Shown here: one piece after another, positions 1 to 18,864 of the stretch
Layout of the letters: each line of letters starts with the position of its first letter
Position numbering within the stretch: the first letter of the stretch is position 1
From: Methanobacteriota archaeon
GTDB taxonomy: Archaea; Thermoplasmatota; Thermoplasmata; RBG-16-68-12; SOIM01
Length of the DNA: 44,239 nt
Assembly (NCBI GenBank): GCA_020345725.1
Contig: CP070767.1
Span: 1,635,139 to 1,679,377, forward strand
Direction: 5' to 3'
Program-made: the position numbers and the translations under genes
Notes under the pieces: model-generated
The model's database searches: none
What the model was told of the DNA's origin: nothing
The model's input: only the letters and a program-made list of their open reading frames with translations

Positions 1-2539
1 CGTCAGCAGTGTTGTCTCGGTCCATAGTGATTTCGGTGTCGGACAGGGCCATCGTGACCGATCCCACTCCTGTGATATCATCACCAGCATATGGAGAACG
101 ACCCATGTTCTGGCCACTCGCTGGCTGCACAGAAGCGAACGCCACCGAACGATCGACATCCACAGACACTGGAAGACGCACAGTCTCCTGATTCATGCCT
201 GAACGGATGTTCTGACTTCCTGCCAGGACACTGCTTCCGTCCTTGAGTTCCACTACCTGCCAGTTGATTTCGGTTATGTTGTTCGGAGATCCAGAGAGAC
301 ACCGGTCTATCATCACAGTCGTGGAATCAACCAACTGAGCACGAAGCATATTGGCGCCAACAATCGGACCGCCACCACTCATTCGGAAACCAACCAACAC
401 AAATGACTTATTCACATCAACAGGAACGCTGAGAGTTGCATTTACAGAGGTGGTTGGACCCGTCATTGTGAAGATGGATCCTTTCTGGACGTTGATGAGT
501 GCAGGATCTGTGAATTCCACAACTTGCCACCAGATTGCGTGGCCCGAGTTCGCCCCCTGGACTCTGAACTGGAGATTTGAAGTGTTTGTCAGTTCGCCGA
601 CTACAGGGTCGTCTGAACTCCAGTTCACATCGGTACTTGTAGGTGTCTTGGACCACGTGACGAATGCTTGCTGAACTGCCGTGATTTGGCTTATTGGCAA
701 GTTGAACATGGTCGAGTTCATAGAGGGTATCTCTCCACGTTGTACTCTCACACCAGAATAGTACTCAACAACATACCAATGTACGGAGATGGGCGATGGT
801 ATGCCTTCATCCGTTGATCTGGCGAATTCCAGTGAAGTGGGTGTCGCGATTCTTCCAGAGAGTTCTGAACTTACTGGACGGTTACCGTTGTGTCTCGTGT
901 TGAATATCAGGAAGGCTTTGGACATGTCCACCTGGGTGATGTTGACGGTAATAGTGCCACTTGCCATGCTGACCGCTGTGCCGCTTTGTACGGATTCTAT
1001 TCTTGTCCCGATGTTGACATTCGTGGGGGGATTGGATATCACTGTGTTTCCATAGTGAACGTAGTATCCTCTTTCAGTTGTAGAGCTCTCTATTCCTCGA
1101 TACAATGCGAACCACACTCTGGTTGAATTGCTGTTCCATGAGGATGCTGGGTCCAGGATTCGGTCTATTTCCACCCATTCTGTTGTGTTCCAGTAGAACA
1201 TCCTGACGTCATCACCGTCTGCCTGAGACTTACCAGCCGCCACCAGAGAAGCATGATCCAAGTCTATGGAAACCGTGTATCCTGGTGGAAGACTCGAGGA
1301 ACCTGCCGTGATTGTGATTCCCCTTATGTACTGGAACTGCAATTGTGCCTTTCCGAAAGAAACAAAGGTGTCTGTCATTGAACTATACTGGGCGGCGTTC
1401 CAATCGGGTGAGTGAACAGCCGACGAAACGCGAATCTCGTCCATCATACCATCGAGGTAATCTCTTACTGGGAAACTTAGGCTGAGAATCTCGAAATGTC
1501 CATATCGTGTTGGAATGAACCTACCAGATGTACTCCAAGCAGAACCTAGATCGCTATCCACCAGTGTTCCATCCAGGTAGAGGAACAAGTTCCCGTTGAG
1601 GATGTCCCAGGAAAACACAAGATGGTGCCAGTCATTGTCAAGAACTCCTCCTCCGATCACTCGTGAGGTGAACGCCCCTGTGTTCATCCCTGCACGGAAC
1701 TGGCCTCCCTCGGTCCAAATCGCCCTGTCCCTGTTCTCCTCAGTGCTGAAGATGCTCCGTGTCGATGCGGTATTGTCGAGTTTTACCCATAGCTCAATAG
1801 TCCCCTGGAACTCGCTCGCGTCCATTTCATCTCCATTGCTGTCGAGATAATCATTGTTACCGTCGAAGTTATCGGCTCCACCTATGAATCCCGGTACGCT
1901 CATGTTGATTTCGTTCATTACTGCTTCCAGATGGTTGCCATTTGAGGTTGAATCCAGATGGTCGTTATTGCTTCCAGTCGTCCTGTTCGCTTCATTCATA
2001 TGCTGCACCATAAGGTAGTTAGAATCCCACACATTTGACGGATTCTGCCCATCCAGAACGGTTTGGTTCCCATAATACATCCAGATGTGGTCGGTAGTGG
2101 ACAACCGATCGATGAGTGGCACTCTAACCCAGACAAGCGATGTTCCGGATTCATTCCATCTCTCAATCTCGTGGTCCAACACAGTGGTTCCATCAGCATC
2201 CACAAATCGAATGTCTTCACCTGCGTTCTGGGTATTGGTATAATCGATTCTGCTGTCATTGAGCTTAATCAGAACTGGGAAATCGGGGAGGTCTTCATTG
2301 ATGGATTGTGTGTCGAAACTCAGTTTCTGTCGAATCGTCCAACTACTGTTCCACCAGTCTCCTCCCAGCCACGGTTTTGGAAGCTCTTCGAAGTACATAT
2401 TGAGGGTGTATGGTCCTGTACCGAAGTTGGCTGTTCCCTTGCCAGTTGGCCAGGACGGAACAACTAAGAGCAACATAAGGAGTGCGGCCACCAAGGTGGT
2501 GGCTCTTACTCGATGGGATTCCTTAGCTCTCTGCCTCAT
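1..2539 (-). CDS. Giant surface protein C, DUF2341 + LamG-like (C-terminus beyond window)
   Basis: The reading frame is open from an ATG at 2539 to the left edge (846 codons, no stop), so the 3' end is missing. Residues about 12-30 are a hydrophobic signal segment. A DUF2341-type domain follows (about 62-160, starting WWNSSW and ending near the HIWMYYGN motif). A LamG/concanavalin-like jellyroll follows at about 170-385, with the typical DWHHLVFSWD and YLDGMMDEIRVS motifs. The rest is beta-rich and unassigned. The ATG overlaps the TGA of the preceding giant gene (ATGA, 2536-2539) and has GGAGG 8 nt upstream, so translation is probably coupled. This family typically binds glycans or makes surface contacts. 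By analogy with its neighbours it may end in a membrane helix, which cannot be seen here. Confidence 0.88.
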   Translation of the reverse strand, partial: MRQRAKESHRVRATTLVAALLMLLLVVPSWPTGKGTANFGTGPYTLNMYFEELPKPWLGGDWWNSSWTIRQKLSFDTQSINEDLPDFPVLIKLNDSRIDYTNTQNAGEDIRFVDADGTTVLDHEIERWNESGTSLVWVRVPLIDRLSTTDHIWMYYGNQTVLDGQNPSNVWDSNYLMVQHMNEANRTTGSNNDHLDSTSNGNHLEAVMNEINMSVPGFIGGADNFDGNNDYLDSNGDEMDASEFQGTIELWVKLDNTASTRSIFSTEENRDRAIWTEGGQFRAGMNTGAFTSRVIGGGVLDNDWHHLVFSWDILNGNLFLYLDGTLVDSDLGSAWSTSGRFIPTRYGHFEILSLSFPVRDYLDGMMDEIRVSSAVHSPDWNAAQYSSMTDTFVSFGKAQLQFQYIRGITITAGSSSLPPGYTVSIDLDHASLVAAGKSQADGDDVRMFYWNTTEWVEIDRILDPASSWNSNSTRVWFALYRGIESSTTERGYYVHYGNTVISNPPTNVNIGTRIESVQSGTAVSMASGTITVNITQVDMSKAFLIFNTRHNGNRPVSSELSGRIATPTSLEFARSTDEGIPSPISVHWYVVEYYSGVRVQRGEIPSMNSTMFNLPISQITAVQQAFVTWSKTPTSTDVNWSSDDPVVGELTNTSNLQFRVQGANSGHAIWWQVVEFTDPALINVQKGSIFTMTGPTTSVNATLSVPVDVNKSFVLVGFRMSGGGPIVGANMLRAQLVDSTTVMIDRCLSGSPNNITEINWQVVELKDGSSVLAGSQNIRSGMNQETVRLPVSVDVDRSVAFASVQPASGQNMGRSPYAGDDITGVGSVTMALSDTEITMDRDNTAD

Positions 2540-5500
2540 TTCATCGCCTCCTCTATGCTTTGTTCCTCTGTAGGCCCAGATTCTGTGGTTTTTGGTGGCT
2601 GTCTTGGCTGACCCTTGTCTCCTTTCCGCGGCCTCTTAGGTTGATTCTTCGTATTGAGTTCTCCAAGGTGCTTGCGAATGACGTTCTCCACGCCTGAGAA
2701 TCTGAACAGAAAACCGTCCCAGCTTTCCAATTCCTTCTTGTACTCCCTCTCAATTTCCGCGGTTGCATCTACTATCGGCTGCAAATTCCTCTTTGTTTCG
2801 TGACCGTTGTACACGACCGCGAGGTACACCATTTCGCCTCTCTCAATCATTATCTTCTGTTTCCCAAATTCGATCTTCTTGACTGGCGCATCCTCCACCC
2901 CTCTGAAAGAGTCTCTGATGAACTCCTGGATAGCGGTCAGCATATTGGAGAATATGTCTTCATCGATCTCGCTCTCCCTCTCAATAACGCAGTGGCTGAT
3001 GAGACTTCCATTCTTGTAGATGAGAAACGCCTCGTCAATCTGGATCCTGGCGAAGAACCATCGGGCAAAGATGATGAGAATCGCAATTGCAAGCAGGGCT
3101 GTGATCAAGGACCATGGCCAGTAAATCTGATCCCAGATGGAAGGAGGTGCTGGACCGATAATCCTTACATGGATTATTCTATTAACAGTCTCGTCACCAT
3201 CGCTGACCTCAAGATACACATGGTCTTCCCCCTCTACCGAGTAGCTGAAGATAAGGATGGAACCAGCAAGCGTGGGTGTTTTGGTGTAGTTGCCGAATGC
3301 TCTTATGGTCAGGTCAGAGAAACTGTCGTCGACATCGTAGACATATTCTCTCAAGTCCAGAGTGAGAACTTGGTCTGTTCTCACTGTGAGATCCAGTATC
3401 TCCAGGATTACCGGAGCATCGTTGACAGGAAGAACTGTCACCTTCACTGTCTGCTCTATCAAGGCCCCGTTCGGATCTGTTGCTCTGAAAGTGACGTACT
3501 CCACTCCAAACCAATCCTGTGTTGAGTTTAGTGTCACCCTCGAGGTTGGGTCTATCGATATCAAGACATTTGTAGATAGACTTGAGAAGGTGAGTTCTTC
3601 TCCATCTGGGTCGATGAAGAATTGGCCCAACCGAAATGCGTTGGGGAGAGTGGTGTCCTCATAGAAAGAAACATCTGGGATTGTCTCATAATTCTCAGGA
3701 GGCCAGTTGTCAACTATCGTTACATATATTTCTTGCCAATCGGAAGATAGGCCGTCACTCACTGTTATTCTGACAACAATCGTTTGTCCATTCATGAACT
3801 GCGGGTAGTGTAAGTCCATCACGGTGTTGTGGCCGTCGTAGAAGAAGATGTGAGTTGGGTCGTCAGTGCTTATCACCAATTCCGATGTGTCGTTGTCCAC
3901 ATCATACACATATGGAGCCAAGTCAAAGGTGAAGTTGTAGTCAGGAAAAGCAGGGTCGTCGTAACGAACCACAAGATCTGGTACACCAGAGATGACAGGT
4001 GGATCGTTGACCGGAGTAACGGTTATCAGAACGATGTCCTCTGCTCTGGCATTGTGAGGGTCAATCGCTCTGAATGACACAGTCTCTGTTCCAGACCAGT
4101 CAACTGGGGCTTTGAAGTCAACTGTGTGGTCATCATTGATAGTAATGTCAACATGCACGTTTCCGCTTGAATAGAACAAACTATCTTGATCCGGGTCTTC
4201 GAAGTAATCGTCCAAATCGAAGTAGCCGAGTATTTCCTGCCCTTCTTGCAGGAAGACATCTGGCAACTCCAAAATCAGCTCAGGTACGAAATCATCCGAT
4301 ACGGTGACTGCAATCACCGTGGACATCTCCCCTCCATGCTCGTCGTGTACTGTTACTATAGGATAGACAGTGAGACCATCGAACTCCTGTGGATACGTGA
4401 ATGTCCCCCATAGTCCGTTGAAGGATATGTAGTCGGGTTCAGTGCTGTCTAGCGTGAGGTTCTCCTTTGTCGTCTCCACGTCCGATACGTAGTCGTAGAA
4501 GTAATAGCCATAAGGCACGTCATAGTGCAGGGTGAAGGGCGTTATGCTCTGAATGGTGGGGTTGTCATTCATTTGTGTGATATTGATGTAGAGCGTCTGG
4601 CTGTCGGTGTAGCCGTCCATGTCCCTTAGCCATATTGTGAGCTCATCACTTCCGTATGCGTTGGTGACTGTGGTGAACGTTATCAGATGGTTTCCGATGA
4701 CGTTGTCGCCAGTTATTGTGGTCAGAGTGCTATCGTGGTTTGTGAAATACCAAGTGAGATTCCAGGTTGGATCTTGAGGATCGCTCGCAAAAGAGGAAAG
4801 GTCCAGATCCCATGAACCATAGTCTTCTGGTCTGAGTTGATCTGGTATGGTTCCCAGAATTGTGGGTTTCACGTTAGTGACTACTACAGATACATTTGCG
4901 CTGCCGGTTATGTTGTTCTGCAATATGGCGGTTACATTGATCCATCCGCTCAGCAATTCTGTGTCAAGGGCTTCCAAGCTTGCCATCTCGGCCGATGAAG
5001 AGGTTATTGTCCCTGCGTTCGTCTCCCAGGTCGAACTGATGATTGACACTACATTCCCATCAGAGTCATGGCCGGTCGCTGTGAAGTTCTGGGTCTCCAA
5101 GTGTTCCACAATCACTGGATTTGGCAGGACTGTGATGCTGTCCAATGCTCCTGCTGTTACGGTGATTTGGTCTGTTGTGTTGGCGTGACCAAGTCCATCG
5201 TTTATTGAGACCGTTCCTGTTCCGACTGTTGTGGCGTCAAAGGTCGCATTCTCTGAGGGTCCTGGAGGAATGGTCCCAATACCTCCGTTGACGGTCCAGT
5301 TAACCGTCACAGTGCCAATTTGGTTGTCATCACTATCGTATTCGTATGCTGTAAAATTCCCAATGTCATCGGCTGTAAGTGTTCCAGGACTCCACGGTTC
5401 TATGCCAACTCGGAATCGCGAGCCAGATATGACTTGAATGATGTTAGTCGTATTTGAGTGTCCCAAACCATCGTTTGCAGTCACAGCTCCAAAACCAGGT

Positions 5501-7479
5501 TGCATTGGATCGAACAGGGCGAATGAACTTGGACCGGGAGATATGGATCCTATTCCACCTGCCACGCTCCAGTTCGCAACGATAGGTCCCAATGGATTTC
5601 CTCTCCAATCGTGCCCTGTGACATTGAACAGAGTGTTGTCGTCAGTCGTCAGAATCCCTGGTTCCCATGGGTCGATTGCTATTCTTGACGTGCCTCCAGC
5701 CAGAACATTGACGACAGTGTAGTTCGAAACCGAGTCGTCCGAGTTGTTGCAATATACTCTCCAAGCCCCTACCATTCCGGGAAGATATACGCCAGAGGAA
5801 TTGACAGAGCCCCAAGGATCATCTGTTTCCCATTTCTCAGTAAAGGGTGTGTTGTGATGGAAAGAATCGTGTCCAGTGGCATTCAGGTCAACCCATTCGT
5901 CAGTCGTTCCAGTCCACGTTGCTGCGGACATGTGGATGTGGTCCAAGCTTCCGAAGAATTGATAGGTTATTCTCATATCAAGCAGGATTGGAGTTTGTAT
6001 GGTGTTCGAAGCTGTCAGATTCGCTCTGAACCTGATCGTCTGGGAACCAACGGACTGAAGTGACTCTCCTCTGAAGATTTCAGTCCATGATGCTCCAGAG
6101 GTAGTTGAATACCAGTATGTGATGTTAGTTTGAGGCTGAAGTATGGAAGTAGCGTTGAATTGCTCCCAGCTCACCCAGTTGATTGGTGTCAAATCCTCGG
6201 TTTCCAAACTTCCACTAGGTTCATATCTCCAGCAGTCAATCCTCACATCTTCCAGTATGGGCCTCTTTGTCCTGTTGAGAGTTTCCATTTCGGCTTTGTA
6301 TTGTATGCATCGATTCGGGGGAGATCTGATTTGAGAGCCTGTTGGGGTTGTGTACGCCGGTGACCAGCCGCTCCAGATTCCAGAACAGTCCCCAGTACGA
6401 GTATGGATCGACATATTGGTTTGACTGGGTATGGTGGAGTTCCAGCTTATGTTACCCCAATTTGTGATTGACTGGCCGTCCATTGTTCTGGAGACGTAGG
6501 TTCCATTGGCAAGTCCTCCTTCCGTGGAGATGTAGTTGACTCGAACTTTTGGTCGATTGCCGGGAACAGCAGAATGAATGCTATCGAACCTCTTCTCCTC
6601 CACCACGACGGCAGAGCTATACGGAATGAGAATCACACCATAGTTCGGCACCGTTCCGTTGATCCACTCACTCAGAAGCTGTGTGATATCCCATGAGTAC
6701 CAAGTTGTCTGATCTCGTATGTCGGTCACGACATCCTCTGGGACAACGTTGAAATCTCCTCCATCGGTCGCCCAGGTGTTTACTGCATCCCTATCTTGCC
6801 ATGTGACGCCATCAACCATTGGATTGTCATTCCCAACTCCTTCCTTCCATGACGCAGTCACTTTATGCAGTGAGATGTTTACTGGCATAGCAGAATCAGC
6901 GCTTCCCAGACTCAACCTGAGGCTCGATGCAGTTAACAAGTCGAGGTCTTGGAACTGAGTTATGTTGAACTGGACAAGTATCCTCTTCTCATCCACGATC
7001 CTCGCATCGAGTGTTGGTGATAATCCGAAGTTTCTGTTGAGCGGGGCTGTGCCACGGATATGTGCGTCTCCTCCCCCTATTGTTCCAATCGGATACTCAA
7101 GGACCTGAAGTATGCCAGCAGAAACGGTATCATTCAAAGTCACATTGCCAGGGTCAAGACTGACATTTACATTGAAGAAGAATGTTCCCCGTTGGAAATC
7201 CGCCAAGGATGTGTCTAGGAACTGTGAGCTTACCACGCCAAGGGTCACATTGTTTGGCAAAACGCTGAGATTCTGATATGTGTAATTGGAGGAGTTCTGA
7301 AATGACCAAGTGGCTGTCATCGTTCCATCCAGATTGTCCTGCAATGTTGGATCTGCACTCGGATCATTGACAAAGATCAACAGGTTCGATGTAAGTGTGA
7401 ATACGACTAGAAGAATCAGGAAGAATCTCCTGCCCTCCATGGGTTTGGCTACTCTTGTTCTCTTGATCTGGGCTCTCAA
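2536..7479 (-). CDS. Giant single-pass surface protein B: cadherin-like stalk with cytoplasmic longin/roadblock-like domain
   Basis: A protein of 1647 residues. Its start is a TTG with GGAGGG 5 nt upstream (7485-7490); the nearby ATG at 7483 is out of frame. Order of parts: basic N-terminus and signal helix (about 16-36); DNRLRE-type domain (about 120-320); beta domains; Ig-like repeats (about 595-870) sharing a GGIG[ST]I.PGPS motif; cadherin-like repeats (about 870-1440) with VNDPP/VNDAP linkers and acidic Ca-binding-type motifs such as DVDND; transmembrane helix about 1454-1476; cytoplasmic domain about 1480-1595; and a Lys/Pro-rich tail. Many N-x-S/T sequons suggest a glycosylated exterior. 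The inside domain reads beta-beta-helix-three beta-helix, the order of longin/profilin-like folds. It lies between a Ras-like GTPase gene and surface protein C, with which it overlaps 4 nt. A sensor or adhesin signalling through the GTPase is inference. Confidence 0.93.
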   Translation of the reverse strand: MRAQIKRTRVAKPMEGRRFFLILLVVFTLTSNLLIFVNDPSADPTLQDNLDGTMTATWSFQNSSNYTYQNLSVLPNNVTLGVVSSQFLDTSLADFQRGTFFFNVNVSLDPGNVTLNDTVSAGILQVLEYPIGTIGGGDAHIRGTAPLNRNFGLSPTLDARIVDEKRILVQFNITQFQDLDLLTASSLRLSLGSADSAMPVNISLHKVTASWKEGVGNDNPMVDGVTWQDRDAVNTWATDGGDFNVVPEDVVTDIRDQTTWYSWDITQLLSEWINGTVPNYGVILIPYSSAVVVEEKRFDSIHSAVPGNRPKVRVNYISTEGGLANGTYVSRTMDGQSITNWGNISWNSTIPSQTNMSIHTRTGDCSGIWSGWSPAYTTPTGSQIRSPPNRCIQYKAEMETLNRTKRPILEDVRIDCWRYEPSGSLETEDLTPINWVSWEQFNATSILQPQTNITYWYSTTSGASWTEIFRGESLQSVGSQTIRFRANLTASNTIQTPILLDMRITYQFFGSLDHIHMSAATWTGTTDEWVDLNATGHDSFHHNTPFTEKWETDDPWGSVNSSGVYLPGMVGAWRVYCNNSDDSVSNYTVVNVLAGGTSRIAIDPWEPGILTTDDNTLFNVTGHDWRGNPLGPIVANWSVAGGIGSISPGPSSFALFDPMQPGFGAVTANDGLGHSNTTNIIQVISGSRFRVGIEPWSPGTLTADDIGNFTAYEYDSDDNQIGTVTVNWTVNGGIGTIPPGPSENATFDATTVGTGTVSINDGLGHANTTDQITVTAGALDSITVLPNPVIVEHLETQNFTATGHDSDGNVVSIISSTWETNAGTITSSSAEMASLEALDTELLSGWINVTAILQNNITGSANVSVVVTNVKPTILGTIPDQLRPEDYGSWDLDLSSFASDPQDPTWNLTWYFTNHDSTLTTITGDNVIGNHLITFTTVTNAYGSDELTIWLRDMDGYTDSQTLYINITQMNDNPTIQSITPFTLHYDVPYGYYFYDYVSDVETTKENLTLDSTEPDYISFNGLWGTFTYPQEFDGLTVYPIVTVHDEHGGEMSTVIAVTVSDDFVPELILELPDVFLQEGQEILGYFDLDDYFEDPDQDSLFYSSGNVHVDITINDDHTVDFKAPVDWSGTETVSFRAIDPHNARAEDIVLITVTPVNDPPVISGVPDLVVRYDDPAFPDYNFTFDLAPYVYDVDNDTSELVISTDDPTHIFFYDGHNTVMDLHYPQFMNGQTIVVRITVSDGLSSDWQEIYVTIVDNWPPENYETIPDVSFYEDTTLPNAFRLGQFFIDPDGEELTFSSLSTNVLISIDPTSRVTLNSTQDWFGVEYVTFRATDPNGALIEQTVKVTVLPVNDAPVILEILDLTVRTDQVLTLDLREYVYDVDDSFSDLTIRAFGNYTKTPTLAGSILIFSYSVEGEDHVYLEVSDGDETVNRIIHVRIIGPAPPSIWDQIYWPWSLITALLAIAILIIFARWFFARIQIDEAFLIYKNGSLISHCVIERESEIDEDIFSNMLTAIQEFIRDSFRGVEDAPVKKIEFGKQKIMIERGEMVYLAVVYNGHETKRNLQPIVDATAEIEREYKKELESWDGFLFRFSGVENVIRKHLGELNTKNQPKRPRKGDKGQPRQPPKTTESGPTEEQSIEEAMK

Positions 7480-7534
7480 GCATACCCTCCAATAACGAGG
7501 CTTCTTCAGCTCTCTCTCAGAAATCTCTTAGTTT

Positions 7535-7546
7535 GAATATATACAT
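7535..7546 (-). promoter_or_regulatory. Putative TATA box for giant protein B
   Basis: The minus strand reads TATGTATATATTC about 60 nt upstream of the TTG at 7479, an archaeal TATA-like element. It would allow transcription of proteins B and C separately from the GTPase gene that ends at 7589. Confidence 0.45.
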
Positions 7547-7588
7547 AGCTTCGAGAATACCTCTAATGAAAATCACTGATGATAATGG

Positions 7589-8191
7589 CTAGGGACTGGC
7601 TGCAGTTGGTAGAGGTCCCGATAGTACTCCAGCACCCAACTTCTCCAGAGGGTGAGTCTTGAGTATACGCTCAACCACCTTCACAAATGCGATTTCCACA
7701 TTCTCCCCAGTCTTTGCACTTGTGAGTAGGTATGATGTACCATGCCCATCTCCCAGTTTTGCCAGTTCTGCCTCCTCTATCTGGATATCGTCCCGTAAGT
7801 CAGTCTTGTTTCCTATCACAAGAACTGGGATGTCTCCTGCCACTTCTCTTACGCTCCCAATCCACTCGTTCAGGCCCTGTAGGGTGTTCTCCCTTGTCAA
7901 GTCGCAAACACCCAGAACGCCCTTTGCACCTTGGAAATAAGCCTCCTGCAGCAGTTTCCTGAAACCTTTCTGGCCAATTATGTCCCATATAGTCAGGTCG
8001 ATATGAAGGTCTTCCTTTGTGTCTGGATGTTTCATGTCAATCTCCCTTTTTGTGACCTTTGTCCCCATCGTCTGTAGATACCTGTCGGAGAACTCATCGA
8101 AAACGTATCTCCTTATTAGGCTGGTCTTCCCTACAGCCCCATCACCCACCATACAAATCTTCATCTTAATCTGCAGTGGTTCCTTTTCCAT
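7589..8191 (-). CDS. Ras-like small GTPase 1
   Basis: A protein of 200 residues with all five G boxes: P-loop GDGAVGKTS (about 16-24), switch I Thr within TMGTK, G3 WDIIGQKGF, G4 NKTD, and G5 TSAKTGE. The catalytic Gln of G3 is kept, but the usual DTAGQE is DIIGQK. There is no C-terminal cysteine for lipidation, so any membrane association must come through a partner. It is a paralogue of the GTPase at 15145-15744 and, like it, lies directly upstream of a giant surface protein whose cytoplasmic domain looks like a GTPase-binding fold. The Ras/Rab-like assignment is firm; its cellular role is inferred. It ends in TAG. Confidence 0.95.
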   Translation of the reverse strand: MEKEPLQIKMKICMVGDGAVGKTSLIRRYVFDEFSDRYLQTMGTKVTKREIDMKHPDTKEDLHIDLTIWDIIGQKGFRKLLQEAYFQGAKGVLGVCDLTRENTLQGLNEWIGSVREVAGDIPVLVIGNKTDLRDDIQIEEAELAKLGDGHGTSYLLTSAKTGENVEIAFVKVVERILKTHPLEKLGAGVLSGPLPTAASP

Positions 8192-8238
8192 CCTAGCATC
8201 CCCGCTGGTGCTTTTCTAGACTCTTCCAACTTCAGAAG

Positions 8239-8247
8239 TTTATATAA
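8239..8247 (-). promoter_or_regulatory. TATA box of Ras-like GTPase 1
   Basis: The minus strand reads GTTATATAAAC about 50 nt upstream of the ATG at 8191, which predicts a leader of about 20-25 nt. It shows that this GTPase and probably protein B form a transcription unit separate from protein A. Confidence 0.6.
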
Positions 8248-8319
8248 CCGTTCTTGTGTTGTTATCAATGCTGATATTGCACCTTGACTGAATTCATGCC
8301 TCTGGGACATGCACATCTT

Positions 8320-11091
8320 TCACTCCATACTCTCCAAGGAAGAGATGACCTTGTCCTTGTCCGCACCAAAAATATCTCTCACTTCATCAGTGAGTCCATC
8401 AAGGTCTTCGAGATTCCCAGACCAATCAATCAGTTCTTCCTCGTAGTGCCTTTCTGTTCTCAGCAGAACCTCCCTGAGGGACTCGATGTTCCTCTTTGTC
8501 TCAGTGCCTGTGTAGACAACGGCTAGATACACAAACTCGCCCCTTTCGATGAGTATTCTCTTCCTTCCGAACTCCATTGTTCTGAGCCTTTCTTGACCGT
8601 CTTGAGTTATCGATCCGTCCGCGTAGTTTTTGATCGCTGTCAGCATGGCCGAGAAGACATCCTCGTCGACTTTTAGGGATTCATGTCTTGTGATATGGTC
8701 AATCAGTTTTCCGCTCTTGTAGATGACATAGGCATCTTCAATCTTCATTGCTCCAAGGTACTTCTTGGCCAGAAGGGCAGCGATTATGGAAGTCAGGATT
8801 GCAGTGATCAGGAGCCATATCCAAGACGCTGTGTCTGGCACAATATCAGATACAGGTGGGATGATTTCTACTTCGAAGCTTGCATATGACGTCCACTCAC
8901 CGTCCGAGACAGTGACCAGGACAAAGTCATGAGTAGCGTCCAGAGGATATTCAAAGACTATGATGCCTCCCACTTCGTATACGTGATTGGGATAGTTGTT
9001 AGCCAGTGTTATCTCCAGGTCTGCAAAGTCATTGTCCACATCATATGCGTACCTACTGAGGTCAAGAGTCCAAGATTGACTGCTGTTGATTATCTGCTTG
9101 GGTATGTCGTCTATTCTAGGTGCATCATTTACAGCAATTACGGTAACAGTTATCCAGCACTCAGCCAGTCCTCCGTATGGATCTGTGGCCCGAAATGTGA
9201 CTCTTTCCGAACCGAACCAATCCTGCTCAGCGGAGAATGAGACATAACCAGTGATGTTGTTGATGCTCACATGGACTTGTTGGTGGCCGTAGCTGTATAT
9301 GAGAAGGTCCCCGTCTCTGTCCCAGAAGGACAGAGATATGTTGAACGCGTCACTCAGTACTGTATCCTCGTAGAACACTCGGTCCTGGGGTGGATTCACA
9401 AGCTCTGGCGGCCAGTCTTCTGATACCGTAATCTGGATGATGTCGGTGTTCATTGACGATCCGTCAGATACTGTGATGGCAACGTCCAAAGTCACACCCT
9501 TCATGCTCTCCGGGAAGTGGATTATCATCACCAGATTGTCTGGAGGACTGAATTGTATGTACAAAGGATAGTTCGTATCGACTGTCAATTCCGAAGGAGG
9601 GTTATCAACGTCTGTAACGTATGGTGAAAGGTCAAAGGTGTACTCATAATCTGGAACACTGGGCGTATCGTAGTGAACGACAAGGTCTGGTACCCCAGAT
9701 ATCTTTGGTGGGTCGTTGACTGGCAGGACAGTCACGATTATCAGATCTTCAGCCCTGGCGTTGTGGGGGTCTATGGCCTTGAAACTTACAGTCTCGACAC
9801 CGAACCAATCACTATCGGCCCAGAAATCGACTGTGTGATCCACATCATCGATTGTGATGTTCACATGAGTATTTCCGTGGACATAGTACAGGCTGTCGTT
9901 GTCAGGATCTGAGAAATAGTCATCCAAGTCGAAGTGGTCACGTAGGATTTGGTCTTCCAATAGGGTCACGTCAGGAAGCTCCCTTTCCAGAACTGGGACA
10001 TTGTCATCCGTCACAGTGATTGCTATCAGCGTTACAGCTTCAAGACCTCCTTCGTCTCGGACTGTGACACGTGGATAAACGGTTGTTCCGAGGAATTCCT
10101 CTGGATACGTGAATGTTATCCATAGACCGTTTACGACAGTATGCTCCATGTCACTGCAAGTTAGATTGAGGTCCAATTTCGGTGTTTCTACATCAAATAC
10201 ATAATCGTAGAAGTGGTAAGGGTACGGAACATCGTAATGAAGCGAGAATGGGGTGATGCTCTCAATCACAGGCCTGTCATTATCTGGTATGATGTTGACC
10301 CAAATGAGTTGAGAGTCCACATTGCCATCACTGTCCTTCAACCATATCGAGGCCGAGTTGTTACCATAGGCATCCTGTACCGTAGTGAAGGTGATTAGAT
10401 GATTCCCGGGGACGTTCTCTCCGGTGATTTGAACTATCGATCGGTCCACTCCAATGAAGTACCAGCTCAGCTCTGTCAGATTGTCCTGCGCATCTGACGC
10501 ATAAGAGCTCAAGTCAAGGACCCAACTGCCATAGTCCTCCCTCTTCTCCTGGTTCGGTATTACTTGTGTTATCGTTGGATTCTGTGGTTCGTCCAGGACA
10601 TTCACTATGGCTGCCCCTACTACATTGCCCTGTGAAGTCGCTGTTATCCTTATCCACCCGTCACTGAGGGTGGCATTGCTCGCTTTGAGCGTGGCATCTG
10701 TCATGGTGGAGCCTATGATTGTACCCGCGTTCGTTTCCCAGCTTGAACTGACTATCGATACTGGATTACCATCCCAATCAAAACCACTTGCCTGGAAGAG
10801 CTGTTCCTGATTCACGTATAGATTGGCCAGACTTGGGGTGAGTATGATGTGATCCAATGCCCCTACTGTCACTGAGAAGTCCCTCGTATTGTTGGAATGT
10901 CCCAATCCGTCGTCACAACTCACATTGCCACTCCCGATTGTTGTGGCATCAAAAGTCCCAAATACACTTGGACCGATGGGTATGGTGCCTATCCCCCCAT
11001 TCACAAACCAGGATACGCTTGCTGGACCTATGATGTTGTCATCAGAGTCATAGTGGTAGGCATCGAAGACCATCGTGTCGTCCGCGGTCAT
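8320..11091 (-). CDS. Giant surface protein A, C-terminal part (downstream of in-frame TAG)
   Basis: This is the 923-codon segment from the first ATG after the amber codon; the frame is open back to 11313 and is the same frame as the upstream part. It carries an Ig-like repeat, cadherin-like repeats with VNDPP/VNDAP linkers, a transmembrane helix (about 757-780) and the cytoplasmic longin/roadblock-like domain (about 782-895), with motifs MEFGRKRILIERGE and EDVFSAMLTAI closely matching protein B. It has no signal peptide, so on its own it could not be exported in the expected topology. It therefore makes sense only as the C-terminal part of one 2234-codon protein starting at 15024. It ends in TGA, 128 nt before the next GTPase gene. 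Confidence 0.85.
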   Translation of the reverse strand: MTADDTMVFDAYHYDSDDNIIGPASVSWFVNGGIGTIPIGPSVFGTFDATTIGSGNVSCDDGLGHSNNTRDFSVTVGALDHIILTPSLANLYVNQEQLFQASGFDWDGNPVSIVSSSWETNAGTIIGSTMTDATLKASNATLSDGWIRITATSQGNVVGAAIVNVLDEPQNPTITQVIPNQEKREDYGSWVLDLSSYASDAQDNLTELSWYFIGVDRSIVQITGENVPGNHLITFTTVQDAYGNNSASIWLKDSDGNVDSQLIWVNIIPDNDRPVIESITPFSLHYDVPYPYHFYDYVFDVETPKLDLNLTCSDMEHTVVNGLWITFTYPEEFLGTTVYPRVTVRDEGGLEAVTLIAITVTDDNVPVLERELPDVTLLEDQILRDHFDLDDYFSDPDNDSLYYVHGNTHVNITIDDVDHTVDFWADSDWFGVETVSFKAIDPHNARAEDLIIVTVLPVNDPPKISGVPDLVVHYDTPSVPDYEYTFDLSPYVTDVDNPPSELTVDTNYPLYIQFSPPDNLVMIIHFPESMKGVTLDVAITVSDGSSMNTDIIQITVSEDWPPELVNPPQDRVFYEDTVLSDAFNISLSFWDRDGDLLIYSYGHQQVHVSINNITGYVSFSAEQDWFGSERVTFRATDPYGGLAECWITVTVIAVNDAPRIDDIPKQIINSSQSWTLDLSRYAYDVDNDFADLEITLANNYPNHVYEVGGIIVFEYPLDATHDFVLVTVSDGEWTSYASFEVEIIPPVSDIVPDTASWIWLLITAILTSIIAALLAKKYLGAMKIEDAYVIYKSGKLIDHITRHESLKVDEDVFSAMLTAIKNYADGSITQDGQERLRTMEFGRKRILIERGEFVYLAVVYTGTETKRNIESLREVLLRTERHYEEELIDWSGNLEDLDGLTDEVRDIFGADKDKVISSLESME

Positions 11092-11313
11092 TGTCCCCGG
11101 GTCCCATGGTACTATCCCGGCCCTTGAGATCGACCCGACCGTTACAATGATGTCGTCAGTCGTATTGGAGTGTCCGTTGCCATCGTCAGCCGTGACATTT
11201 CCCAGGCCTGGTGTGGTTGCCGAGAAGAGAGAGGAATCACTGGGTCCTGGATTAATCGTTCCAATCCCTCCCGAGATCGTCCAATTGACATTAACTGGCC
11301 CAACTAGATTGTT

Positions 11314-11316
11314 CTA
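11314..11316 (-). other. In-frame amber (TAG) codon splitting giant protein A
   Basis: The minus strand reads GAT TCG TAG AAC AAT. Frame and homology continue without a gap across it: the flanking residues GYDS-stop-NNLVGP align with GHDWRGNPLGP in protein B and with YDSDDN in sister repeats. Possible causes are a nonsense mutation, an assembly error, or stop-codon readthrough. Confidence 0.9.
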
Positions 11317-14300
11317 CGAATCATAGCCCGTTGCAGTGAACAGAACATCATCGTCAGTTGTCAATGGGGAAACCTGCCAAGGATTCACAGCAATCCTGCT
11401 GATCGCTCCCGGTAGAATCGTGACCGCAGTATAGTTAGAGATGGTGTTGTTAGTATTGTTACAGTAAACTCTCCAGGAACCAGCAGCTCCTGGCTCATAT
11501 AGACCAGTCGGACTGATGACTCCCATAAGATCCGTTGTCGACCAGTTCGCTTGGAAAGACATCGGTGTGTGGTCCGCAGCATGTCCGACTGCGTCCAAGT
11601 CAACCCATTCATCAGCAGTTCCTGTCCATGTATCCAGCGACATATGGATATGGTCGAGTGGTCCCGCTGTCTGAACCCAGTATAGAAGCTTCATCTCTGA
11701 AAGCTCTGGAGAGACAGATCCATTGTCCGTTCCTAGAATTGCCTTGAACCTTATCTTAGGTATTGGCACGAGACTCAGATTCTCGCCAGGCATTGTGCTG
11801 GTCCATAATCCTCCTGAGTCTGTTGAATAGAAGAATTCTATGGATGTGTTGTCTTGGGTGGTCGCATTTGCATCGAACACATCCCAAACGGTGATGTTTG
11901 TTGGAATGAAGTCAATTGTCTCTACCTCCCCATTCTTGTAGTGATGCCAGTATGAGATGCTGACGTCCGAGACTGAAGGATTGTTTGCTGGAATCGTTGT
12001 GACGAGATAAACCTTGTATTGGAGGTACTGTGCCACAGGGCTTTGAATTGGTTCTCCTGAAGCAATGGAATAAGGCGACCATGATGACCAATTACCGTCA
12101 ATAGCAGGCGTTGAACCACTTCTAGTTCCGATAGCTACGATCGTCCCTGGCGGTTCTGCAGCGCTCCAGCTGATATCCCCCCAGATGACGGTGTGGGTAG
12201 CATCGTAGATTTCCGAATGGAATATTCCGTTTGCCCAGTCTTGAGCTGTCCCCCACATTGTGACATTGTCAAGCAGAAGAACCAGCTTTGAGGGGCCAGT
12301 TGTGTTTGTCCCAAGGTGTAGCTGGAAACTGATATTGTGAATCCCAGGATCAACCAGATGCTTGCTGACGTTCGCTTTTTCCATCTTCCACGCGACGACA
12401 GACAGATTGAACCTGGTCCACACCGGAACTGAATCGATGACAACGGTTAGATCGACAACCGTGAGGCCATCCTGGCCTTCAATCCAATTGTCAAATGTCA
12501 GTTGGATATCTCTCCAACTCACGCAGATGTCTGATAGGATTGGTGTTTCACCTGGATCATTAGTATTCAGAATGACCCTGTATTGGATGTAGGGTGCAGG
12601 GGAAGATTTAATCAGTTGACCCGATGAGTTCGTGTAGGAGATTGCAGGTTTCCAGGACTCCCACTGGTCAGGATTTAGAATCGGGTCAGGATCCGTTCCA
12701 GTTCTTGTCTGAATGATTAGGTCGGTTACACTGGGTTGGATTGTCCCGGTCCACTGGATATAAGCATCAAGCTTATCTGGATTGTAATACTCCACAGAAG
12801 AAAGGTAGGTCCCGGTCAGTTGATAGACTCTCGCGCTCACATTCAGCAGGAGTTCTGGCCAGTCGGCAGGATTGAGCGAATCGCTGCTGGCAAATCTGTA
12901 TGGGGACTGGTTGTCTCCTCCCACTGCCCTCAGCAGCAATCCATAGTTCGGATAATCACCGTCCACCCATCCTTGTACGAGTTCGGTGATGTTCCATTCC
13001 ACCCAGCCGAGATTGCCCGACAGGATCGTTATGGTATCATAGGGCCAGAGGTTGACGTCCCCACCTTCTCTTGTCCAGCGTTGACCAATCATCCTCTCAT
13101 TCCAAGTGGCGGTCATCTCATCCCAGGGACTGAGTAGCCTGTAAACTGTGACGGTTAAATCTGACATCCCAAAGTCCTGGAAGAAGTAGAGTCTCAACAA
13201 AGCTGAGTTCACCGAGACTATTGGAAGTGATCTAAGGTTGAAGTCCAGTATAGCCCTTGATTCTACCCCCATAATCGGATCATAGCTCAGCTCAAGAAAC
13301 GGAGAAATACCGAAGTTCTGGTCGGGCAAGTTCTCAATCAGAGTAGTATCCTTCATGATCAACGGGTCGGGTTTGAATGGTATGGTCCTTGTATCGGACA
13401 TACTTTGGAGAACCACATCCCCTGGGCTGAGGTCGATATCCACTGTCGAGACGTTCCCTCGCTTGAAGTCATCCTGAGTCGTGTCAAAGAACCCTGTCCT
13501 GATGCTCTTGGAGAACGTCTGGTTGAGGTAGGCGGTCTCACTGAAAGACTCCAACTCTATTGTGATCCATACCCTATCGAATGCCACGAACCTATTTCTT
13601 GCGATATCATCGTTCATGAAGAATATCTGTATTGTTGTAACATCAAGCCAGGTCCAAGAATCGCATGCACTTGTAATGTCGTAGGACTTGTTCGTATCCA
13701 TAATCTCGAATGGAAGTGGCTGTATCTCTGTGACCCTTCTTATCCCCCAGCAGTCAATGTATTCGATAGCGTTGTATCCGTGATAGTCCGGAGCTTCAAC
13801 CATGTATTTTGCATTGAGAGTGACCTTCTCAATGTTGCCAGAAAGACCTGCCGTGTCAAAGGTGTCAATGAACATGTCCTGTGTAGGTCGGACTACAAAT
13901 CTGAAACCATCGTCCCATCTAGTCTCATCAACGGGATCTCCATCTCCTCCCGTTCCTCCACCACTCCTGGGGAGAGCTTCCGCGCTTGAATTCGGATGGG
14001 AATCGGCTGTATGCTCAAACAGCACGTTCTGTTCGAGTGGGTTCCAGCCAACCATGATGCTTGGACTTCGGTCATAAGTCCAATTCAAATCAGTGGAGAA
14101 TGCTCCGTTCTGGACTAGGTCCAAAGACGAGAAGTTCACAATGAGCCTGGGATGTCTGTCTGGGAATCCTGCATCATCACTGCTGTAGAAGGCAGGATCG
14201 ACTCCAGAATCAGTTGAATCGTTAACTTGTTTCAGCAGTAGGCCGAGATTGGCATAACTTCCATCTAACCAGGATTGCAGAAGCGGAGTGACATCCCAGC

Positions 14301-15024
14301 TGATCCATCCAAAAACCCCGTCTTGGAGAGTTTGGACATCATAATTGAAAGGATCGAAATCCCCTCCCGCTGTTGTCCATGGATGGGTGCCATCATAGTC
14401 GTTGTATGTTAGGCCCATCTCGGACCACCAGTGTGTGGTCCTGTGAACGCTGACACTGGTGGGGTTTCCAGCAATGCTCTGATAGTAATACAGCTGGAGG
14501 GTAGCTTGGGAAATCGTCGAAGTAGGAGGCAGAGAAGATAGGTTGAATTGGATGAAGCTTCTCTTGATGATATTCGGGGCCCCACCCACAAGCCGAAGCT
14601 GATTGGAAGTCCCGTAGTTCATATTCTGACCTCCACCGCTCATTATGTAGGAATCCTTGATATCGAGAGGGCCTGGCTGTATTATCCGGGTAAGAGTGGT
14701 CGGTGTGGAAGTGTTTTCTAGCCTAATCTCTCCGGGTTGCGTTGTTGTGTCTATGTTAATTGTCTGGGTAGCACTCTCAAAATCAGATTGGGAGGTCTGG
14801 TTCCACCATTCAACGCCTGAGTCAAGTAGTACCGAATTATTGCTCACTGTGGTGTTTGTGAACGTATAGTTTGTGACATTCTGGAAGTCCCAGACGGATT
14901 CGAACAACCCACTGCCATGATCCAGGATTCTCGGATCACCTTGAGAATCTTCGGTCATTCTAACGGCGGATGACAAGATCATCAGTGCGATTAGAAACAG
15001 TATTTGAAACCTGGTCTTCGGCAT
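11314..15024 (-). CDS. Giant surface protein A, N-terminal part (ends at in-frame TAG)
   Basis: The ATG at 15024 is preferred over the in-frame ATG at 15054 because it has GGTGA 7 nt upstream and gives a compact signal peptide starting MPKTRFQILFLIALMI. The 1236 codons contain a DNRLRE-type domain (about 120-300), a beta domain, a second DNRLRE-type domain (about 555-730, with the typical WDEMTATWNER and GDYPNYGLLL motifs), fibronectin-like segments with WGDISW/GWSP motifs, and the beginning of the Ig-like repeats. The frame then meets TAG, so as written it is a secreted fragment without an anchor. DNRLRE domains are common in archaeal surface proteins. The gene lies 120 nt after Ras-like GTPase 2 and may be co-transcribed with it. 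Confidence 0.88.
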   Translation of the reverse strand: MPKTRFQILFLIALMILSSAVRMTEDSQGDPRILDHGSGLFESVWDFQNVTNYTFTNTTVSNNSVLLDSGVEWWNQTSQSDFESATQTINIDTTTQPGEIRLENTSTPTTLTRIIQPGPLDIKDSYIMSGGGQNMNYGTSNQLRLVGGAPNIIKRSFIQFNLSSLPPTSTISQATLQLYYYQSIAGNPTSVSVHRTTHWWSEMGLTYNDYDGTHPWTTAGGDFDPFNYDVQTLQDGVFGWISWDVTPLLQSWLDGSYANLGLLLKQVNDSTDSGVDPAFYSSDDAGFPDRHPRLIVNFSSLDLVQNGAFSTDLNWTYDRSPSIMVGWNPLEQNVLFEHTADSHPNSSAEALPRSGGGTGGDGDPVDETRWDDGFRFVVRPTQDMFIDTFDTAGLSGNIEKVTLNAKYMVEAPDYHGYNAIEYIDCWGIRRVTEIQPLPFEIMDTNKSYDITSACDSWTWLDVTTIQIFFMNDDIARNRFVAFDRVWITIELESFSETAYLNQTFSKSIRTGFFDTTQDDFKRGNVSTVDIDLSPGDVVLQSMSDTRTIPFKPDPLIMKDTTLIENLPDQNFGISPFLELSYDPIMGVESRAILDFNLRSLPIVSVNSALLRLYFFQDFGMSDLTVTVYRLLSPWDEMTATWNERMIGQRWTREGGDVNLWPYDTITILSGNLGWVEWNITELVQGWVDGDYPNYGLLLRAVGGDNQSPYRFASSDSLNPADWPELLLNVSARVYQLTGTYLSSVEYYNPDKLDAYIQWTGTIQPSVTDLIIQTRTGTDPDPILNPDQWESWKPAISYTNSSGQLIKSSPAPYIQYRVILNTNDPGETPILSDICVSWRDIQLTFDNWIEGQDGLTVVDLTVVIDSVPVWTRFNLSVVAWKMEKANVSKHLVDPGIHNISFQLHLGTNTTGPSKLVLLLDNVTMWGTAQDWANGIFHSEIYDATHTVIWGDISWSAAEPPGTIVAIGTRSGSTPAIDGNWSSWSPYSIASGEPIQSPVAQYLQYKVYLVTTIPANNPSVSDVSISYWHHYKNGEVETIDFIPTNITVWDVFDANATTQDNTSIEFFYSTDSGGLWTSTMPGENLSLVPIPKIRFKAILGTDNGSVSPELSEMKLLYWVQTAGPLDHIHMSLDTWTGTADEWVDLDAVGHAADHTPMSFQANWSTTDLMGVISPTGLYEPGAAGSWRVYCNNTNNTISNYTAVTILPGAISRIAVNPWQVSPLTTDDDVLFTATGYDS

Positions 15025-15144
15025 CGCCGATTCACCTGTGCATCCTGAATTCATTGCTGTCTCACATTCCTTTCTCAGAATCGGATATTTGTAGTCCAGA
15101 AGCGTTGAAATAACTGCGTTCGCTATTATCGAAAATGAAAATTA

Positions 15145-15744
15145 TCACGATTCTTCGGCTACCGCTCTTGAAGGAACCTTCTGCTGTGCTTTCATGGCTT
15201 TTCGATGTTCCACGATCGTCTTTGCCAGATAATCAAAGAGATCCTCTACATTCTCCCCAGTCTTTGCACTTGTGAAAACAATCTCTGCGTTGTACTTCTC
15301 CATAAGTTCCTTCAGGTCGGGTTCCTTCACTGTTATGCTGGTCTGTAAGTCATTCTTGTTAGCCGCTGCAACGACTGGCACAGTACCTGCAATTTCTTGA
15401 ACTCTCTCTAGCCAGTCCTGCAGTCCTTTCACTGTTTCTTCCCTTGTCAAGTCGCAGACAGCGATTATTCCGTCCACACCGAAGAAGTAAGCCTCCTGTA
15501 ACAACCTTCGGAAACCATGCTGACCCATTATGTCCCAAATCGCCATGTCGATTTCAGTATCATATCCACCTTCAGAACCCGGTATTTTCATTTCCTTTTT
15601 GGAGATCTTGGTGCCAATGGTTGTGAGATACTTGTCGCTGAACTCATCAAACAAGAATTTCCTGACTAGGCTGGTCTTCCCCACAGCACCGTCTCCCACG
15701 AGACAGATTTTCAGTTTGAGCCGGTTTCCATATTCTATAGGCAT
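15145..15744 (-). CDS. Ras-like small GTPase 2
   Basis: A protein of 199 residues from the ATG at 15744. A longer TTG start at 15786 is rejected because it lies upstream of the transcription start predicted from the TATA box at 15789-15797. G boxes: GDGAVGKTS, switch I TIGTK, G3 WDIMGQHGF, G4 NKND, G5 TSAKTGE. As in its paralogue at 7589, the catalytic Gln is kept, the residue after it is altered (His), and the protein ends without a cysteine. It is followed on the same strand by giant surface protein A. It is probably a molecular switch acting at the membrane through the cytoplasmic domain of that protein (inference). Both GTPases share the switch II motif GF-R-LLQEAYF. Confidence 0.94.
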   Translation of the reverse strand: MPIEYGNRLKLKICLVGDGAVGKTSLVRKFLFDEFSDKYLTTIGTKISKKEMKIPGSEGGYDTEIDMAIWDIMGQHGFRRLLQEAYFFGVDGIIAVCDLTREETVKGLQDWLERVQEIAGTVPVVAAANKNDLQTSITVKEPDLKELMEKYNAEIVFTSAKTGENVEDLFDYLAKTIVEHRKAMKAQQKVPSRAVAEES

Positions 15745-15788
15745 ATTCTCTACATTCCTTGGAACTTGAGTGATAACCCTTTTCAAAA

Positions 15789-17382: not shown

Positions 17383-18780
17383 CTATCCCTCAGTTCTGCC
17401 CCCCACTAGGGCCTTGCATCTTAGATGCGGTCCTCCACCATCGACCTTCGCTGCCTGACCTTTGAAACAGAACCCGTAGCCCATGTCAAACTCGAAGTCC
17501 TGACCAACCATATCCACGCTCTTCAGAACATCAAATGCCCGGCCGCTTATCGTCACATTCTTCAACAACTTCCCTATCTCTCCATTCCTTACCTCATAGG
17601 CTTCCTCGACTGTGAACATGAACTCGGCATTTGCATCGGCCTGCCCTTCTCCACCTCCCTTGAGAAGGTACCCCTTCTTGGTCTCTTGTATGATTTCTTC
17701 CACTTTGGATTCGCCTGGCTCGATGTACGTGTTCCTCATCCTGATAACTGGCGTGTCACCATACTCGTACGCCCTGGCGTTACCGCAGGGATCCACACCC
17801 AGACTTCCCGCAATCTCCCTGCCAACAAGGTATGTCCTCAGTTCACCCCCAACTATGATTCTGGAATCCTTGCATTTCACTCCTTCATCATCAACAGGGA
17901 TGCTTCCCGCAGAGTGCTCATACATCTCCGGCATACCGCTATCAACAAGTGTCACCAATGGGCTGGCCACCATCTGACCTATCTTGTCCTTGGTGATCGA
18001 GCCTGCTGAAACCAGATCACCTTCCACGGTATGGCCAATCGCCTCGTGACATATGAGTCCGACCAGGCTGGGATGTAGAATCACTTGGGATGTGCCTCCT
18101 TCAGGATTGGATGCGTCAAGAAGCTCAAGTGCGAGTTTCGCAGCCTTCTCGGCCACTTGCTCGGGTGACTTCCTTGAGAACAGGTCCTTCCAGCCTCCTG
18201 TCACGCATACAGCTTCGTATCCCCTGTTCATATCTCCATTCCTGCCAGCCACCGCGGATACCGAGAACTCTGGCTTCACGTCCATCAATTCAACATTCGC
18301 ACCGTCGGATGTCACGATGGACTTCTCATCCATGATTTCGTAGTAAGTGCATGTAGAGCTCTTGATGTCGTTCGAGTAACTCCTAGTCCTCTTCTCTATC
18401 TCCCGTACGAGTTCCATTTTCTCTTCCAGCGAATGGTTCTCCACGGGATCATTGATCTTTGGTTTGAAGGATCCCTGGGCAAGTTCTGCCTCTGCCAAGG
18501 CCTCTACGCCATCTCTTCTGCCCTGGCTGGCTACCTTCCCGGCCTTGAAGGAATTCTCCAGGCATGCTACCAAACCCTCCCTATCCAGTCGGTTGGTGCT
18601 GCTGAATCCCCAAGCCCCATTGACCAATGTCCTTATTCCAACACCCTTGTTTGATATGGAACTGGCGGACTCCAGTTCTCCCTTCTCTATCGAGATCCGG
18701 TTTATATGCCTGGATTGATATCTTAGCTCCGTGTATTGAGCCTTGCTCCCTTCCCCAATCTTGGCCAATATGTCTATCAA
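17383..18780 (-). CDS. tldD: TldD-family metalloprotease subunit
   Basis: The zinc-binding HEAIGHTVEGD motif and the C-terminal TKKGYLLKGGGEGQADANAEF region identify TldD, the catalytic partner of TldE encoded just downstream. The frame stays open to 19341, but that part runs antisense into the helicase gene and has no TldD similarity. I place the start at the TTG at 18780, about 35 nt downstream of a TATA-like CTATTAAG (18812-18819), giving 465 residues and the usual family N-terminus. Initiation would be nearly leaderless because no Shine-Dalgarno site is visible. A TTG at 18765 is the alternative. Confidence 0.9.
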   Translation of the reverse strand: MIDILAKIGEGSKAQYTELRYQSRHINRISIEKGELESASSISNKGVGIRTLVNGAWGFSSTNRLDREGLVACLENSFKAGKVASQGRRDGVEALAEAELAQGSFKPKINDPVENHSLEEKMELVREIEKRTRSYSNDIKSSTCTYYEIMDEKSIVTSDGANVELMDVKPEFSVSAVAGRNGDMNRGYEAVCVTGGWKDLFSRKSPEQVAEKAAKLALELLDASNPEGGTSQVILHPSLVGLICHEAIGHTVEGDLVSAGSITKDKIGQMVASPLVTLVDSGMPEMYEHSAGSIPVDDEGVKCKDSRIIVGGELRTYLVGREIAGSLGVDPCGNARAYEYGDTPVIRMRNTYIEPGESKVEEIIQETKKGYLLKGGGEGQADANAEFMFTVEEAYEVRNGEIGKLLKNVTISGRAFDVLKSVDMVGQDFEFDMGYGFCFKGQAAKVDGGGPHLRCKALVGGRTEG

Positions 18781-18864
18781 TGATATCGTGTTGTGTATGG
18801 GGCATTTTGACTTAATAGCTTTCCAATTCAATTCTGAGTAAAAGGGTTTTTTAGGTGCTAGGAC

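Follow-up and report, generated by a model that had tools for sequence, protein, structure and literature searches.

Longin-fold inner domains of giant receptor-like proteins encoded beside Ras-like GTPases in Thermoplasmata, with relatives in bacteria

What could giant surface proteins and Ras-like GTPases be doing together when their genes stand side by side in an archaeal genome? We took up this question in a window (the whole stretch of DNA analysed here, 44,239 nucleotides) from an uncultured archaeon, in which five minus-strand genes follow one another in the order GTPase 2, giant A, GTPase 1, giant B and giant C (Table 1). A sequence-only reading of this DNA had given these five genes on one strand and in this order, all of which we recovered, and had proposed that the ectodomains sense an extracellular contact or ligand and pass it to the GTPases through a domain inside the cell. 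The source genome is a Thermoplasmata metagenome-assembled genome whose one-contig assembly is a scaffold with many 100-N gaps (e.g., L109:13040-13139); gene order across the gaps of this scaffold is not to be trusted, and the window itself is gap-free. The closest named record, E29_bin30 (G001), belongs to the same genus and was deposited as a Methanomassiliicoccales archaeon. Short intergenic distances between the GTPase and receptor genes (approximately 90-130 bp), together with a 4-bp overlap of B and C, suggest that the cluster is one transcription unit. Its neighbours in the window encode TldD/TldE-type proteins and an Lhr-type helicase, besides giant C, and no adjoining effector gene was found among the neighbouring window genes. 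The TldD-type frame (17383-19341) overlaps the start of the Lhr-type helicase gene (18865-21627) on the opposite strand, and the TldD start probably lies about 170-200 codons further in.

Table 1 Features of the receptor-GTPase cluster, in window coordinates
Feature	Coordinates	Strand	Description
GTPase 2, Ras-like	15145..15786	-	213 aa (longest frame); likely start is the first ATG, 15744
Giant A	8320..15054	-	2244 codons, one in-frame TAG; signal peptide, Ig/cadherin-like repeats
A: CBM96/DNRLRE domain 1	14188..14661	-	residues 132-289
A: DNRLRE domain 2	12847..13353	-	residues 568-736
A: in-frame TAG	11314..11316	-	codon 1247; Asp in intact orthologue L043:3713-10456
A: transmembrane helix	8767..8823	-	residues 2078-2096; from hydropathy
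A: inner longin domain (predicted)	8374..8742	-	residues 2105-2227
GTPase 1, Ras-like	7589..8191	-	200 aa
Giant B	2536..7479	-	1647 aa; signal peptide, DNRLRE domain, Ig/cadherin-like repeats, one transmembrane helix, inner longin domain (predicted)
B: DNRLRE domain	6538..7068	-	residues 138-314
B: transmembrane helix	3052..3108	-	residues 1458-1476; from hydropathy
B: inner longin domain (predicted)	2671..3039	-	residues 1481-1603; AlphaFold2 pLDDT 87, pTM 0.83
Giant C	2..2539	-	first 846 aa; signal peptide, DUF2341, laminin-G/ConA-like lectin domain

As paralogues, giants A and B share 50% identity along 1291 residues (A 941-2230, B 324-1606). Both have a signal-like helix at the N-terminus, and towards the C-terminus a single transmembrane helix is followed by an inner domain (123-136 aa, 39% identical between the two), so that the common ectodomain, single helix and homologous cytoplasmic domain ascribed to them earlier hold. 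Calling the ectodomains cadherin-like proved right in part: the Pfam match is to Big_9, with weak matches to Cadherin_4/5, but A and B also carry DNRLRE/CBM96 domains and C carries DUF2341 and a laminin-G/ConA-like lectin domain, and we downgraded cadherin as the principal ectodomain type to Ig/cadherin-like repeats plus DNRLRE/CBM96. The sequence of giant C breaks off at a 100-N scaffold gap that lies immediately beyond the window edge. Its full-length relatives (L039, L041, L112 and L113) have a C-terminal transmembrane helix and a divergent inner longin domain, which aligns to the A/B family in profile-profile comparison (94.7% probability, E 6e-8). Judging from these relatives, the cluster probably holds three longin-tailed proteins, C included, and not only the two in which the inner domain had been noted.

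Giant A is not the one open frame that it had been taken for, as a single in-frame TAG interrupts it where the same-genus orthologue (L043, SOIM01000043.1) is intact, 2247 aa long and 79% identical. A pyrrolysine reading of this codon was rejected, since TAG is an ordinary stop in this genome and ends 8 of the 17 window genes, about half. It is possible, if somewhat doubtful, that the A module is decaying in this genome, with the TAG truncating A before its membrane helix and GTPase 1, B and C left as the working unit, which would be compatible with the main explanation below. The intact orthologue and the ordinary use of TAG as a stop fit such decay, but the 997 further codons of A after the stop are open and conserved, and in a gapped metagenome scaffold the TAG may be a sequencing or assembly error.

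The inner domain of the window proteins matches no Pfam or NCBIfam model, and a sequence search of the PDB with it returned chance matches only. Its AlphaFold2 model, built on a 47-sequence alignment (pLDDT 87.1, pTM 0.83), has the bb-a-bbb-aa order of strands and helices of a longin domain (E11-19, E24-29, H38-55, E64-69, E72-78, E82-89, H94-110, H128-141). Foldseek comparison of this model with the PDB found AP-2 sigma, zeta-COP, the Sec22b longin, MglB, Asgard Roadblock2, Ragulator (LAMTOR) and TRAPP chains, with TM-scores of 0.68/0.76 for the Sec22b longin. Weak Pfam matches in line with this fold were obtained for family members, to Robl_LC7 in 7 of 47 and to Fuz_longin_1 in 5 of 47; the best of these (0.0025 for Fuz_longin_1, 0.017 for Robl_LC7) belong to relatives only, the window sequence having none. 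The predicted fold of the inner domain is thus that of a longin: the earlier proposal of a longin or roadblock domain agrees with both the model and its structural matches, and of the two folds the longin suits the predicted structure better.

Both window GTPases match the Ras family PF00071 (4e-33 and 6e-36), and PF00071 and TIGR00231 score above cut-off, which places them in the Ras superfamily of small GTPases. Their G1, G3, G4 and G5 motifs are complete in a motif scan and the switch-II Gln is kept in both (WDIMGQ and WDIIGQ). A C-terminal prenylation Cys, looked for in both, is absent (the C-termini read ...AVAEES and ...PTAASP), and no separate MglB-type roadblock gene lies beside either gene. 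An orthologue of GTPase 2 stands upstream of A in G001, G002 and G004, and in G002 and G004 this upstream gene is the only A-associated GTPase; GTPase 1 between A and B was found only in G000 and G001 and is genus-specific. The exact tandem of GTPase 2, A, GTPase 1 and B is therefore a recent local elaboration of a wider theme. It had been suggested that the duplicated arrangement marks a functional unit; the pairing of domain and GTPase does recur, but the tandem itself is local.

That pairing extends well beyond the window. Among 61 related genomes, 54 carry the inner domain, and the genomes without it mostly have no Ras-like GTPases either; in a count of co-occurrence, 24 genomes had both, none had the domain without a GTPase, two had a GTPase without the domain and five had neither (Spearman 0.87). 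Of 120 inner domains in a first set of 13 Thermoplasmata genomes, 27 had a GTPase as same-strand neighbour, against an expectation of 1.9 and a maximum of 11 over 200,000 simulation runs under a null model that assumes uniform gene placement; in another set, of 11 genomes, 11 of 77 had one, against 1.1 and a maximum of 8, again over 200,000 runs. Over the 24 Thermoplasmata genomes of both sets, 38 of 197 inner domains adjoin a GTPase on the same strand where approximately 3 are expected, and 159, double-domain giants included, have no adjoining GTPase. Most archaeal tails must either act with GTPases from other loci or do without a GTPase. Two genomes of different genera (G044 and G055) have exactly one GTPase gene and one inner-domain gene, and in both genomes the two genes are immediate neighbours. 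Within the source genome, GTPases are paired with four of the seven inner-domain genes, namely A, B, a giant of 1639 aa preceded by two GTPases (L099) and an AAA/TPR protein (L102); the giant with two GTPases recurs in G001, G002, G003, G004, G006, G007 and G058.

The sensor part varies while tail and GTPase stay together, as the tail is found in single-pass giants, a multi-helix protein of 425 aa, short two-helix proteins, OmpA proteins and an AAA-TPR protein. This last protein (L102:6112-9063, at 362-365 kb of the source genome) is soluble, with the longin domain inserted in it, and the Ras-like GTPase that adjoins it is extended at the C-terminus and has Arg at the position of the switch-II Gln. 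The multi-helix membrane proteins (425-431 aa; L074, L075, L077 and L078) bear a C-terminal longin tail and are followed by GTPases of 296-319 aa, where complete, with Ser at that position. Giants with two inner longin domains and no adjoining GTPase (L108:7070-12976, L046, L048-L058 and L060-L064) are conserved across the order, a few of them cut by contig ends. Four Ras-like GTPase genes also stand in a row on one strand at G000:C1:111201-113649 (L101:7169-9740) with no inner-domain gene beside them, and similar clusters occur in G001-G005.

Searching genomes with a profile from the inner domains of A and B alone, we found 19 bacterial loci, in Nitrospira, Accumulibacter, Lysobacterales, Bryobacterales, cyanobacteria, Caldilineaceae, Desulfobacteraceae, a gammaproteobacterium, Sphingobacteriales and Flavobacteriaceae. 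A Ras-like GTPase is the next gene in all 18 testable loci (the nineteenth, L083, is cut by a contig end), and the two genes mostly overlap or lie within 60 bp of each other. The association of GTPases with the domain, for which a neighbourhood test had been proposed, is thus significant in archaea and near-obligate in bacteria, but not universal: in the related family f2, the B-C gene pair stands without a GTPase, beside unrelated genes. Several of the bacterial partners join the inner domain to a transmembrane helix and an OmpA domain, and at several loci a helical protein of approximately 200 aa precedes and a histidine kinase-receiver, an adenylate/guanylate cyclase or a sigma-54 activator follows. 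Bacterial partner GTPases have E, S, K, R, T or Y at the switch-II Gln position. The archaeal and bacterial inner domains could be placed in one common alignment.

Neighbourhoods of Group 1 Rup GTPases were described computationally in 2014 by Wuichet and Sogaard-Andersen (PMC4316618), who reported in them a conserved domain of unknown function that matched no model and is often followed by a transmembrane helix and OmpA; no member of the Rup family had been characterised at the time of that survey (PMC4316618). Given its place before the transmembrane helix and OmpA, and its neighbourhood, the bacterial inner domain is most likely this conserved domain. The window and Group 1 Rup have in common a homologous inner domain adjoining a Ras-like GTPase. 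They differ in that the window proteins are giants with an ectodomain, a single membrane pass and the domain at their C-terminus, that the window GTPases keep the switch-II Gln whereas the bacterial partners are without this catalytic G3 residue, and that no helical protein or output gene (kinase, cyclase or c-di-GMP enzyme) adjoins the cluster in the window. Because of the difference in the catalytic Gln, the mechanism of hydrolysis may differ between the window and bacterial GTPases. The statement that no system of this design has been characterised remains true of experiments, but a bacterial relative had already been described from genomes. Our search of the open-licence literature yielded nothing on longin-tailed receptors of archaea that pair with GTPases, and as far as our searches reach, linking the Group 1 Rup domain to the longin fold and to archaeal receptors is new.

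Patristic distances of paired domains and GTPases correlate with r 0.84 over 19 archaeal pairs and r 0.95 over 18 bacterial pairs, values that none of 20,000 permutations reached. Shared species history confounds this correlation, but several of the archaeal pairs are paralogous modules of a single genome. AlphaFold2 prediction of the linked tail and GTPase 1 of L043 gave pTM 0.48 and mean pLDDT 73, from which no interface can be claimed, and a fold search with this model returned Rab GTPases only. The linked chain was obtained by reading L043 through the stops between receptor tail and GTPase 1, as a modelling device and not as a claim of read-through; two mixed alignments, in which MAFFT had matched one domain to the other, were set aside for a third, clean one.

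We consider the best reading, and a reasonably probable one, to be that a longin-tailed receptor anchors and regulates a non-lipidated Ras-like GTPase. Giants A and B, and probably C, would be single-pass receptor or adhesin proteins that sense a ligand or contact outside the cell through their ectodomain, and the DNRLRE/CBM96 and lectin-like domains make a glycan or surface polymer the probable ligand. The longin tail, probably as a dimer, would be the docking platform for the GTPase encoded next to the tail's gene; it would bring a GTPase without a lipid-anchor Cys to the membrane and make its GTP/GDP state dependent on the receptor, and the GTPase would pass the signal to an effector not encoded at the cluster. 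Two features, the fusion of the tail to membrane sensors and the missing lipid-anchor Cys, suggest recruitment of the GTPase to the membrane by the tail, which would also set the GTPase's nucleotide state. Small GTPases are well known to dock on longin and roadblock domains, as in Ragulator, TRAPP and MglB (PMC10933270). Direct binding, dimerisation, control of the nucleotide state and the type of ligand are what we infer, and the tail may be an exchange factor, a GAP or an anchor. The interpretation first put forward for this locus is plausible and better supported than when it was proposed.

It is unlikely, in our judgement, that the proteins are mainly adhesins or surface-layer components and that the GTPase, instead of receiving a signal from them, acts on them through the longin tail to control how they are delivered, placed at the pole or turned over. 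Ectodomains made of long repeat/adhesin-like arrays, closest folds that include trafficking adaptors and a cluster with no adjoining effector gene are all in keeping with such a trafficking-like role, comparable to that of AP sigma or Sec22 longins, but the output modules beside the bacterial domain-GTPase pairs argue for signalling, and short sensors without adhesin ectodomains bear the tail as well. Least probable, and indeed quite improbable, is that the tail has another purpose, such as receptor dimerisation, with the GTPases nearby through a common surface-related regulon, as the lack of an adjoining GTPase for most archaeal tails and the linked tail-GTPase 1 prediction would allow it but the unbroken bacterial pairing of close or overlapping genes, the genomes with one receptor and one GTPase side by side and the lack of any domain-positive, GTPase-negative genome count against it. 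More tentatively than for the window itself, receptor-coupled Ras-like GTPase signalling through a longin tail could be a general prokaryotic architecture, with single-pass giants as well as multi-helix and short receptors in Thermoplasmata and with OmpA-linked Rup systems across many phyla of bacteria.

Compared with known systems, this putative longin-tailed receptor and its GTPase resemble the MglA/MglB pair of Myxococcus xanthus, in which a Ras-like GTPase has a partner of roadblock/longin-type fold, and MglB is among the structural matches to the inner domain. However, MglB is a soluble roadblock GAP, whereas here the predicted longin is fused to a transmembrane receptor, and identity between the two is low, about 9-21% in structural alignment. 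The actinobacterial conservons (CvnA-D), compared here from published descriptions, likewise encode a membrane sensor together with a roadblock protein and a Ras-like GTPase, but the sensor is histidine kinase-like and the roadblock protein is separate (PMC4316618, PMC13343842). Ragulator-Rag, TRAPP and Mon1-Ccz1/Fuz-Inturned also dock and regulate small GTPases at membranes by longin/roadblock domains, and the inner domain has structural matches to LAMTOR and TRAPP chains and weak sequence matches to Fuz_longin_1; unlike the archaeal proteins, these are soluble multi-subunit platforms of internal membranes with lipid-anchored partners and no ectodomain receptor.

To our knowledge, almost no inputs are known for prokaryotic Ras-like GTPases other than MglA, and the longin tail common to archaeal receptors and bacterial OmpA proteins offers a testable input for such GTPases. 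It would also offer GTPases that have no lipid anchor a simple route to the membrane; the want of such a route has been brought up where the origin of eukaryotic trafficking GTPases is discussed (PMC4917890). The loci with one receptor and one GTPase, and the compact bacterial operons, make direct tests feasible. If it is indeed a general prokaryotic architecture, such receptor-coupled signalling would be related in principle to the longin-GTPase platforms of eukaryotes, and would account for the membrane coupling of prokaryotic Ras-like GTPases that are not lipidated.
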